This document shows positions 31,854 to 35,324 of a DNA stretch of 64,000 bases, in pieces. The first letter of the stretch is position 1. Every line of letters starts with the position of its first letter. The notes under the pieces are model-generated. The model worked only from the letters and a program-made list of their open reading frames with translations, was not told the DNA's origin and did not search any database. This DNA is from Holophagaceae bacterium (GTDB taxonomy: Bacteria; Acidobacteriota; Holophagae; Holophagales; Holophagaceae): NCBI GenBank assembly GCA_023257195.1, contig JALRCU010000003.1:1-64000 (forward strand). Direction: 5' to 3'. Made by a program: the position numbers and the translations under genes.

Positions 31854-32546
31854 CTAGGGCCCGATACTTTTCATTTCTTCTAGGAGTAATCGTGCGGCTA
31901 CGGCCTCCGCTTTTTTTAAGGTATTGCCCCTACCTTCACTGCGCCATTCACTTAAGACCACCTGAACTAAAAATGTAGGAGCATGGTCTGGTCCTGTCTT
32001 GGAAATCAAATGATATACCGGTGAGCCAAGATTAAGCTTGGCCGCGCGTTCCTGAAGGGTAGTTTTGGCATCGCTGGCTTCCCAAAGTGCAACCGTAGCA
32101 TTTTCGACTAGAGACCCAAAGCGTCGTTGGAGCAAAGACACAATAAGTGAAAAACCCTCGCTATCCTGTCGAGCAGAGTCCAAGTAGATTGCGGCCAAGA
32201 GCGCTTCGAGCGCATCGGCCAGAGAGCGCTCACTCGCTGGCTGATGATCACTTGTATAAAGAGGTAATTCTATATCCGTAGCCCAAGAGGCCAGTGTCTC
32301 CGTATTGATCAATAAGGTTCTCAACTTCGACATCTCGCCTTCATTGAGATCGGGACGGAGTTGATAAATCAAAAGTGCAGCACCGAAATTGAGAATAGAG
32401 TCACCCAGAAACTCTAATTTTTGATTATTTAAACCTGAGCCCGATGGGTGTGTGAGGGCTTCTAGGAGGATCCTAGAATCCGAGAACTCGTAGTGAGTGT
32501 GTTTTTTGACCAGTTGTACAATCTGTTTGGGATCATGAGGTTGCAT
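31854..32546 (-). CDS. rnc: ribonuclease III
   Basis: Dimeric double-strand RNA endonuclease for rRNA processing and mRNA turnover. The RNase III signature is LEFLGDSILNF (Glu45, Asp49) with the second acidic pair in SLADALEALLAAIYLD, and the C-terminal double-strand-RNA-binding domain is visible (TTLQERAAKL...KKAEAVAARLLLEEM). 230 residues. A perfect hairpin lies in its leader (32601-32629), where autoregulatory cleavage could take place, as in E. coli. First gene of the minus-strand run to 25.2 kb. Confidence 0.95.
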   Translation of the reverse strand: MQPHDPKQIVQLVKKHTHYEFSDSRILLEALTHPSGSGLNNQKLEFLGDSILNFGAALLIYQLRPDLNEGEMSKLRTLLINTETLASWATDIELPLYTSDHQPASERSLADALEALLAAIYLDSARQDSEGFSLIVSLLQRRFGSLVENATVALWEASDAKTTLQERAAKLNLGSPVYHLISKTGPDHAPTFLVQVVLSEWRSEGRGNTLKKAEAVAARLLLEEMKSIGP

Positions 32547-32600
32547 ACTTCTAGTGTGGACTAAAAGCCGCGCTTTTTTTCATCTATTTTGAATTTGAAA

Positions 32601-32629
32601 ACCCTATAAATCCCCTGAATTTATAGGGT
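32601..32629 (-). promoter_or_regulatory. perfect hairpin in the rnc leader
   Basis: ACCCTATAAAT (32601-32611) and ATTTATAGGGT (32619-32629) form an 11-bp stem with a 7-base loop, 55 bases upstream of the rnc start. On the minus strand it is followed by TTTT, so it could also be an attenuator-like terminator. The rest of the 310-bp gap (32547-32856) is AT-rich and holds the candidate promoter below; I see no gene in it. Confidence 0.45.
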
Positions 32630-32745
32630 CTTGCTAGGTTTAGCGTTATCAACTTTTTCGAATAAGTTTCTTATAAAAAGGGTGTGAGATATATTTTTAC
32701 AACAATTCAGAGAGATCAAAAGCTCAAAACTTACAAAAAAACCAA

Positions 32746-32774
32746 TTGACTCAATGAAAAACCTTAGGTTTGAT
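32746..32774 (+). promoter_or_regulatory. candidate promoter for the TrpC-like/H1-like gene
   Basis: TTGACT (32746-32751), a 17-bp spacer, then TTTGAT (32769-32774). It would give a leader of about 75 bases. The -35 matches 5 of 6 and the -10 matches 4 of 6 consensus bases. Confidence 0.4.
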
Positions 32775-32856
32775 TAAGTAAAGCGATTATCTCTTCCTCG
32801 ACACACCAAAAAATTTGTACTTTATAGGACCTACTAAAATCCATGAGATCCAATAA

Positions 32857-33948
32857 ATGTTAAAACGCGTTGCGATTTTTAAAGCTCTTGATATTGAAAT
32901 CAAGAAGCAACGTGGTTCAGTTGCCGCTAAAGGAAATTACCGAGGTCATCATTCTTTGAAAGAAGAATTGAGTCAAGGAACCATCACGATCATTGCTGAA
33001 GTTGCAGGGGGGAGTCCGGGACTCGGGAAGACGCGCTCAAACTTTAAAGCTTCAACGCATGCAAAAAGCTTGATAGAAAATGGTGCAAAAGCCCTCTCGA
33101 TTGCCACCGACAAGTTCCTTTACTTCGGTGACGATAAAGGCCTTTCGGAAACTCGCTCTCAGGTCAAAGTTCCTTTGTTGCGTCGGGAATTTATTTTTGA
33201 GGAATATCAAGTCGAAGAAAGTAAAATTCTTGGAGCCGATGCCATTTTCTTAATGCCGGCTCTGTTATCTCAATCTAAATTAGTAGATTTGCATAAGTTA
33301 GCCGTTGCTAAAGGCCTAGACGTAGTATTCGAAATCACGAATGATGAAGAGATCAAACGATCCATTGAAGTGGGCGCTCAGATCTTTTGCATTGTAGGAC
33401 GTAATTTAGAAAACTGGAATCCCACCTACGATAAGTCCATCGCTCTTATTAAAAAGATTCCTAAAGATTCCCTCATTATGTTTGAAGCCGGCATTAATCG
33501 TTTGGTTCAAGTGAAGCATCTTCATGCCCTCGGAGTTCATGGCGTCATTATTGGAGACGCTCTCTTGGACGACTTTTATCCCGGTAAGCGCTTAGCCTCA
33601 TTACTGAAGGGCGAAGAGCCCCCCGTTAAAAAAATTCCCAAGGTCAAAGTAGCCCCAACCCCTGTGGTTGTCCCTCCACCTAGCAAGGCGCCCTTGGCCG
33701 CTCCTAAAGCAACAACAAAAGTTGGAAAAAAGATTACCAAAGAAAAAAATTCTTCCCCGCGGAAAGATACCGGGTCCAGAAAGCCTGGAACACCGGCTCA
33801 CCGCACCCCTTCCACAACAGCCCGCAAGGGCAAAAAGGAGCCAATCATGGCCAAGAAAAAAGCGGCTAAAAAAGCTACTAAAAAAGTAGCTAAAAAAGCC
33901 ACCAAGAAAAAAGCGGCTAAAAAAGCCACCAAAAAGAAAAAGCGTTAA
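32857..33948 (+). CDS. indole-3-glycerol-phosphate-synthase-like protein fused to a histone-H1-like lysine tail
   Basis: Residues about 35-245 follow the TrpC barrel: TIIAEVAGGSPGLGKTR, AKSLIENGAKALSIATDKFLYFG, VPLLRREFIFEEYQVEESKILGADAIFLM, VVFEITNDEEI, IVGRNLENW, IMFEAGI and GVIIGDALL. Against Sulfolobus IGPS (numbering happens to run nearly parallel), Glu51, Glu159 and Glu210 are kept (Glu48, 159, 210), but Lys53 is Ala50, Lys110 is Arg110, Asn180 is Val180 and Ser211 is Ala211, so normal catalysis is doubtful. No other trp gene is near. From about 252 a Pro/Lys/Thr-rich linker leads to residues 331-363, three repeats of xAKKATKK with 18 lysines, like bacterial H1-like nucleoid proteins. 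It may be a DNA-bound pseudoenzyme. Two terminators follow. Confidence 0.75.
   Translation: MLKRVAIFKALDIEIKKQRGSVAAKGNYRGHHSLKEELSQGTITIIAEVAGGSPGLGKTRSNFKASTHAKSLIENGAKALSIATDKFLYFGDDKGLSETRSQVKVPLLRREFIFEEYQVEESKILGADAIFLMPALLSQSKLVDLHKLAVAKGLDVVFEITNDEEIKRSIEVGAQIFCIVGRNLENWNPTYDKSIALIKKIPKDSLIMFEAGINRLVQVKHLHALGVHGVIIGDALLDDFYPGKRLASLLKGEEPPVKKIPKVKVAPTPVVVPPPSKAPLAAPKATTKVGKKITKEKNSSPRKDTGSRKPGTPAHRTPSTTARKGKKEPIMAKKKAAKKATKKVAKKATKKKAAKKATKKKKR
33847..33948 (+). CDS. possible separately translated H1-like peptide (internal in-frame start)
   Basis: Met331 of the fusion protein begins a 33-residue stretch, MAKKKAAKKATKK and onward, that on its own looks like a small H1-like DNA-binding protein. 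AAGGAG sits 7 bases before this ATG, a proper Shine-Dalgarno. Ribosomes could start here and make a free basic peptide as well as the long protein. Translation is untested. Confidence 0.4.
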   Translation: MAKKKAAKKATKKVAKKATKKKAAKKATKKKKR

Positions 33949-33953
33949 TTCGC

Positions 33954-33978
33954 AGCCCTGAAAAGGGCTTTTCTTTTT
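33954..33978 (+). terminator. intrinsic terminator 1 after the TrpC-like gene
   Basis: AGCCCT-GAAA-AGGGCT stem with a GNRA-type loop, followed by TTTCTTTTT. Confidence 0.8.
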
Positions 33979-33984
33979 AAGAAG

Positions 33985-34007
33985 ACCCCCGGAAACGGGG
34001 GTTTTCC
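33985..34007 (+). terminator. intrinsic terminator 2, in tandem
   Basis: ACCCCCG-GAAA-CGGGGGT, again a GNRA-type loop, followed by TTTCC and a short T-run. Two strong terminators between the TrpC-like gene and eno suggest that eno has its own promoter or relies on read-through. Confidence 0.7.
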
Positions 34008-34043
34008 TTTCTAAAGACCAAAATCCAACCTAAAGTTGATTAA

Positions 34044-35324
34044 ATGACCCTTATTGAAAACATTCAAGCCCTCGAAGTTCTTGATAGCCGGGGAAATCCC
34101 ACACTTCAAGTCACGGTGTACCTATCGGACGGACATTCAGGGAGCGCAATTGTTCCCTCAGGCGCTTCTACGGGATCGAAAGAAGCGTTGGAGCGTCGTG
34201 ATCAAGACCCCAAGCGCTATAACGGCAAAGGAGTTTTGGAAGCAGTTCGTGCAGTGGAAACTATCCTCGCCCCTCATCTAAAACACCAAAATCCCTTTGA
34301 TCAGAAAACCATCGATGAGCGAATGATCGATCTGGATGGAACTCCTAATAAATCTCGTTTGGGAGCTAATGCTATTTTGGGCGTTTCGATGGCGACATCG
34401 GCCGCCGCCGCTCACGCTTCAAACATTCCCCTTTATCGTCAATTGAGGTCGTGCGAGTCGCTTTATTTACCCGTTCCCATGATGAACATTCTAAATGGCG
34501 GGGCTCATGCAGATACGAATGTTGATATTCAAGAATTTATGGTCATTCCTGTCGCCGCACCTAACTTTCATGAGGCGGTTCGCTGGGGTGCAGAGATCTA
34601 CCATAACTTAAAAAAGGTTCTCAAAAAAAAGAAGCTTGCTACCGGCGTCGGAGACGAAGGAGGTTTTGCCCCCCGCCTAGAGAGTAATGAAGCAGCTTTG
34701 CACTGTATCGCGGAAGCCATTAACCATTCAGGACTTCGGCTTGGCCAAGACGTTTATCTCGCCCTCGACTGTGCTGCCTCAGAGTTTTATCGGGATGGTC
34801 ATTATCACCTAGATCAACAATCATGGACTTCCGAAGCTCTACTGCGTTACTACGAATCACTTATTCGACAATTTCCTATCATCAGTATTGAAGACGGGAT
34901 GGCAGAAGATGATCATATGGGGTGGCAACAACTGACCGCCGCCCTCGGCGATAAAATTCAACTTGTCGGTGATGATGTATTTGTGACGAATCCGGCTATT
35001 TTGAAAGAAGGCATCTCAGCGCATATCGCCAACGCACTGTTAGTAAAACTCAATCAAATTGGTACCGTGACGGAAACCTTTCATGCCATTGATGTGGCTC
35101 ACGAGGCAGGTTATCGGTGTATTATCAGCCACCGAAGCGGGGAAAGTGAAGATACGTTCATTGCCGATCTATCCCTCGCTTCATCGGCAAAACAAATCAA
35201 GACTGGAGCCCCCGCAAGGACGGATCGTGTGGCTAAATATAATCGACTGATGCAGATAGAACGAGAGCTGGGCTCTCAGGCTCGATATGCAGGTAAAGAA
35301 GCTTTCAGCTTTGAGGTAAGGTAG
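34044..35324 (+). CDS. eno: enolase
   Basis: Interconverts 2-phosphoglycerate and phosphoenolpyruvate; also a degradosome member in some bacteria. LEVLDSRGNPTLQV, VPSGASTGSKEALERRD, the metal ligands in LALDCAASEFY and SIEDGMAEDD, and LLVKLNQIGTVTET with the catalytic lysine are all present. 426 residues. The FtsB-like gene follows within 5 bp, the same order as in E. coli and relatives (eno-ftsB). Confidence 0.97.
   Translation: MTLIENIQALEVLDSRGNPTLQVTVYLSDGHSGSAIVPSGASTGSKEALERRDQDPKRYNGKGVLEAVRAVETILAPHLKHQNPFDQKTIDERMIDLDGTPNKSRLGANAILGVSMATSAAAAHASNIPLYRQLRSCESLYLPVPMMNILNGGAHADTNVDIQEFMVIPVAAPNFHEAVRWGAEIYHNLKKVLKKKKLATGVGDEGGFAPRLESNEAALHCIAEAINHSGLRLGQDVYLALDCAASEFYRDGHYHLDQQSWTSEALLRYYESLIRQFPIISIEDGMAEDDHMGWQQLTAALGDKIQLVGDDVFVTNPAILKEGISAHIANALLVKLNQIGTVTETFHAIDVAHEAGYRCIISHRSGESEDTFIADLSLASSAKQIKTGAPARTDRVAKYNRLMQIERELGSQARYAGKEAFSFEVR

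Follow-up and report, generated by a model that had tools for sequence, protein, structure and literature searches.

A TrpC-like barrel fused to a histone-H1-like tail in Holophagaceae: one gene that probably gives two proteins

What does a gene make when it joins a tryptophan-synthesis barrel, stripped of its catalytic residues, to a lysine-rich tail of the histone H1 kind? The question is posed by an open reading frame at 32857-33948 on the plus strand of a 64,000-nucleotide stretch of Holophagaceae DNA (hereafter the window), which runs as a single uninterrupted frame of 363 amino acids. A preliminary description had recognized in it a TrpC-type barrel, a Pro/Lys linker and a tail of AKKATKK repeats, and each part proved to be as described. 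The barrel, a (beta/alpha)8 fold of the TrpC/indoleglycerol-phosphate synthase (IGPS) type with its catalytic lysines replaced, comprises residues 1-252 (32857-33612, +), as supported by Pfam IGPS, AlphaFold2, PDB folds and the family alignment. It is followed by a hypervariable linker rich in Pro, Lys, Ser and Thr (33613-33846, +), always open and in frame in the relatives' loci, and by Lys/Ala-rich C-terminal repeats that qualify as an H1-like or AlgP/PhaF-type tail. A terminator-like hairpin with a T-run stands directly 3' of the stop codon (33954-33969, +). The preliminary description had read the product as a fusion protein. The barrel is indeed fused to the H1-like tail in all readable relatives, but the gene does not encode only a fusion, as the tail has its own conserved Shine-Dalgarno (SD) sequence and start codon (ATG 33847). 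Judging from these sequence features, we consider it likely that throughout the family this one gene gives not only the fusion of barrel and tail but also the H1-like tail as a free protein.

Could the barrel be an ordinary TrpC carrying an insignificant tail? The Pfam IGPS model (PF00218) covers residues 24-239 with a score of 159.7 bits (cut-off 27), and structure prediction, a check proposed in the preliminary description, yielded a barrel (AlphaFold2 mean pLDDT 84, pTM 0.82) whose top PDB fold matches are IGPS, with a TM score of about 0.8. The NCBIfam IGPS equivalog models all stayed under their cut-offs, the best reaching 173.5 of 260 bits. Alignment with canonical TrpCs bore out the reported absence of Lys53, Lys110, Asn180 and Ser211. 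In the window the equivalent of Lys53 is Ala (AE-V-A-GG where canonical TrpC has AE-x-K-xx-SP), that of Lys110 is Arg (LRREF vs canonical LRKDF; Arg, His or Gln in relatives), that of Asn180 is Val (IVGRNL vs INNRDL) and that of Ser211 is Ala (FEAG vs xESG; Ala, Gly or Cys in relatives), and the aligned relatives likewise lack this catalytic set. Three acidic active-site residues had been thought to be retained. Two of them, E210 and E48 (the equivalent of E51), are invariant across relatives; the equivalent of E159 is kept in most fusions and is Gln in two relatives. Many further barrel positions are invariant, several of them at strand ends (D85, R109, R182, D234), and a barrel dN/dS of about 0.07 (29 same-length loci, mostly Geothrix) indicated strong purifying selection on a domain that is nonetheless unable to use the IGPS mechanism.

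Such a barrel might still catalyse a reaction, though a different one, with the tail tethering the enzyme to DNA; this would be compatible with two products. The invariant polar residues at strand ends (E48, D85, R109, R182, E210 and D234) suggest a functional, remodelled pocket, but with both catalytic lysines, Asn180 and Ser211 missing and no pathway genes as neighbours, we regard this explanation as doubtful.

The genome content also bears on the TrpC identity. The fusion is the sole IGPS of the window's genome (1.195 Mb, 97% complete, GC 47%), which speaks for an ordinary TrpC, and a search of that genome found neither a second IGPS nor a TrpA. No trp gene lies near the locus, as had been noted before. 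The preliminary description had proposed looking for a second, normal trpC and had set a genome lacking any other trpC against its own reading. Literally, the window's genome is such a case, but because TrpA is gone too, the lack of another trpC does not make the fusion the TrpC enzyme. The same check gave the opposite outcome in seven relatives, which hold, besides the fusion, a second IGPS of canonical type at 23-28% identity with the motifs AE[YF]K or AEVK, KGF, GIN or GWN, and RESG or SESG. Phylogenetically, the twelve fusions tested formed one clade with full support, set apart from the canonical TrpCs by a long stem of 1.86 changes per site. With scores under the NCBIfam IGPS cut-offs, no TrpA, and canonical paralogues alongside in relatives, ordinary TrpC identity was ruled out.

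In size and GC content the window's genome looks like UBA12189/'Acidiparvus', a streamlined freshwater genus of 1.12-1.37 Mb and 44-49% GC for which Cys, Arg and Pro are said to be the only amino acids it can make (PMC11561045); its placement there is our inference. Judged by gene content, the fusion gene appears to have outlasted the loss of tryptophan synthesis in this lineage. That it was kept in a streamlined genome without this pathway points to an important role.

The possibility that a sequencing error had joined two genes, which the preliminary description had itself raised, was ruled out as well, since the same fusion occurs in about 50 independent assemblies, cultured Geothrix among them. 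Taken together, the chance that the locus is an ordinary TrpC or an assembly artefact is negligible. The search for barrel-plus-Lys-tail genes in relatives, proposed earlier, found the fusion, ahead of enolase, throughout Holophagaceae. The nearest named relatives are small-genome Acidobacteriota metagenome-assembled genomes (MAGs), followed by Geothrix/Holophagaceae. In relatives the fusion is conserved over its full length at 51-95% identity, so its build is no product of chance. In an evenly drawn sample of the phylum, the profile matched 18/18 Holophagaceae and 0/180 other Acidobacteriota; class-wide it matched 61 of 93 genomes, every one in Holophagaceae, and the absences within the family are mostly fragmented or incomplete MAGs. 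Apart from minor detection gaps, the gene order fusion-eno-ftsB-dapF-parA-parB-folC is kept wherever the contig allows.

In genome G000 a strict lysine-repeat pattern matched only this locus, and a looser one matched only the fusion locus in five larger relatives; it gave no match in two same-genus genomes, whose short tails carry a different repeat. Genome G000 also encodes four HU-family proteins, so the tail is not the sole possible nucleoid protein. A Pfam search of the tail matched no H1 family, including none of the chlamydial Hc1/Hc2 kind. Those proteins and similar bacterial H1-like proteins are not known to be encoded other than by stand-alone genes, unlike the fused Holophagaceae tail. 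They share with it lysine-rich repeats in variable number (PMC2848022).

There is also a likeness to AlgP and PhaF of Pseudomonas, although to our knowledge no separate internal start is known for their tails. Both consist of a folded N-terminal part and a disordered Lys/Ala/Pro repeat tail of the KPAA type that is thought to bind DNA, and they also position polymer granules by tying them to the nucleoid (PMC9239181). By analogy with these H1-like tails, DNA or polyanion binding is the most likely activity of the Holophagaceae tail, as far as composition can tell. The comparison invites a further reading, likewise compatible with two products, in which the barrel would sit on a particle, for instance polyphosphate or a storage granule, and the tail would tie that particle to the nucleoid. 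In its favour, the repeats of the larger relatives are AAKKPAAKK-like. The N-terminal domain, however, is an IGPS-type TIM barrel unrelated to the helical domain of AlgP/PhaF, and the neighbours eno, ftsB, dapF, parA and parB are not granule genes. We entertain a granule role as possible, but only tentatively.

If the linker served merely to connect barrel and tail, would any part of its DNA be fixed? Among relatives it varies from 51 to 78 aa, nearly every residue differs and its dN/dS is about 0.5 (29 same-length loci, mostly Geothrix); the sole conserved part is the peptide motif KGxKExxM at its very end. Here lies the internal SD AAGGAG (33835-33840, +), 6 nt before an in-frame ATG at 33847. 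This opens a nested reading frame (33847-33948, +) for a free H1-like tail of 33 aa, MAKKKAAKKATKKVAKKATKKKAAKKATKKKKR, in the window and of up to about 200 aa in relatives. The AAGGAG, the 6-nt spacing and an in-frame ATG or GTG are present in the window and in 50/50 named loci that reach that far, with ATG throughout except in L072, which represents one genus and has GTG. One further relative beyond these 50, L026 (genome G010), has neither the internal SD nor the internal start, so that here at least the short product must be dispensable. L026, whose tail is replaced by AKKADPTPVPDSDPTPAKTP repeats, is the sole family member seen without the element.

The element is constrained at the nucleotide level. 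Across 29 same-length loci, synonymous divergence in the 14 codons up to the internal start was 0.014, the lowest window of the gene, whereas the windows in the barrel have a median of 0.45 and none falls below 0.22; many of the loci come from MAGs and the Geothrix loci are kin, and divergence was normalized within the same gene. Rare codons are wholly or almost fixed at the element, namely CCA in 29/29 loci (1% of barrel usage), GTA in 27/29 (3%) and CAA in 27/29 (5%). Within the window's own genus, synonymous changes numbered 0/11 in the element vs 113/157 in the barrel. Between distant genera the freeze of the 14 codons is weaker (0.48 for L006-L014, for example) and only the core motif is constant. 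A second stretch of low synonymous divergence follows the barrel in the Geothrix-type fusions L034-L080, at about codons 254-270 (14-codon pS 0.065). Together with A-runs, it hinted at a programmed frameshift just after the barrel, a candidate that we rejected, as neither a slip site nor an alternative-frame stop is conserved there.

Upstream of the SD, a possible hairpin GCCC-GCAA-GGGC (33820-33831, +) ends 3 nt short of it. At this offset a GC stem of four pairs, closed by a tetraloop, can form in 42 of 43 distinct sequences, compared with at most 20% at other offsets, and L072 preserves all pairs through two compensated changes. Since the pairing is mostly invariant, the hairpin is suggested rather than proved. 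In fold energy the window's region does not stand out from shuffled sequences (z -0.94), and in its centroid fold the SD can pair upstream. Rfam had no known RNA family at the element. As a general motif, hairpin, SD and start recurred in few other places in four genomes under a looser pattern, and GCCC-N4-GGGC was repeated at no other gene. No sigma-70-like site of an internal promoter was found on the plus strand within 32500-34100.

One could read these data as a fusion made alone, in which the frozen block serves an RNA element, a regulator site or the KGxKExxM peptide motif. A conserved stem-loop beside the SD and a fusion frame open in every readable locus would fit. A peptide motif, however, would freeze neither synonymous sites nor rare codons, Rfam is without a match for an RNA element, and the SD-N6-(A/G)TG layout, with its change from ATG to GTG in one genus, matches the expectation for a start site. 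We therefore judge this reading improbable.

We favour instead the production of both proteins. The linker is open in all readable loci and its length changes keep the frame, so the fusion itself is retained; the start element is conserved down to its synonymous sites, which implies that the free tail is retained as well. Translation from 32857 would give the long protein, in which a disordered lysine-rich tail follows an IGPS-fold barrel with remodelled catalytic residues, while ribosomes that load on the internal AAGGAG and begin at 33847 would produce just the tail as a small H1-like polycation. The tail would bind DNA or another polyanion in the manner of the AlgP/PhaF repeats, the barrel could act as a folded cap that binds a partner or ligand on the long form, and the balance between free and capped tail might tune the packing of the nucleoid or polyanion. 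The sensor and anchor roles raised in the preliminary description are likewise candidates. A more specific scheme, a metabolite-gated nucleoid system, would have the barrel bind a phospho-metabolite or partner and thereby control DNA packing by the tail, with internal translation adding uncapped tail so that one mRNA balances regulated against constitutive compaction; we think this unlikely.

The predicted pairing with the anti-SD indicates how the two products may be apportioned. At the internal start it is -7.9 kcal/mol in the window and -8.0 +/- 0.2 across loci; at the main start it is -2.7 kcal/mol in the window and -7.1 +/- 1.5 across loci. Because the main SD is weak, the free tail would be favoured in the window's lineage, which suggests that the 33-aa tail is the major product in this streamlined organism. 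The sequence at 32830-32857 shows a main start almost without an SD, unlike most relatives.

In-frame internal initiation has a parallel in Cas11, which is made as a separate C-terminal protein from within cas8 or cas10d (PMC11899642); those proteins and their function are unrelated, and the short product here is a histone-like tail. From canonical IGPS/TrpC (PF00218) the barrel, with the same fold and sequence family, differs in its replaced catalytic residues, its sub-threshold scores, the added tail and the missing trp context. Among the papers searched, nothing relevant was found on an IGPS-histone fusion, an IGPS pseudoenzyme or a TIM-barrel nucleoid protein. IGPS folds, H1-like tails and in-frame internal starts are each already known; the joining of such a barrel to such a tail is an unusual new domain build. 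If the two-product reading is true, the gene would be a clear and deeply conserved case of a single bacterial gene giving both a fusion protein and, separately, the disordered DNA-binding tail of that fusion. It would also be a case of an IGPS-fold pseudoenzyme put to use outside tryptophan synthesis. Automated annotation will probably label the gene TrpC and overlook the free tail. Since cultured Geothrix species carry the fusion, these readings are testable there.

Two observations concern particular assemblies. For L036 and L057, and for genomes G077 and G094, two copies of the fusion barrel lie on different contigs of one assembly, reflecting either mixed bins or true duplication. In L082 (positions 1002-1711), from a MAG labelled Deltaproteobacteria that is probably misnamed or carries an assembly error, a frame change near residue 63 splits the barrel.
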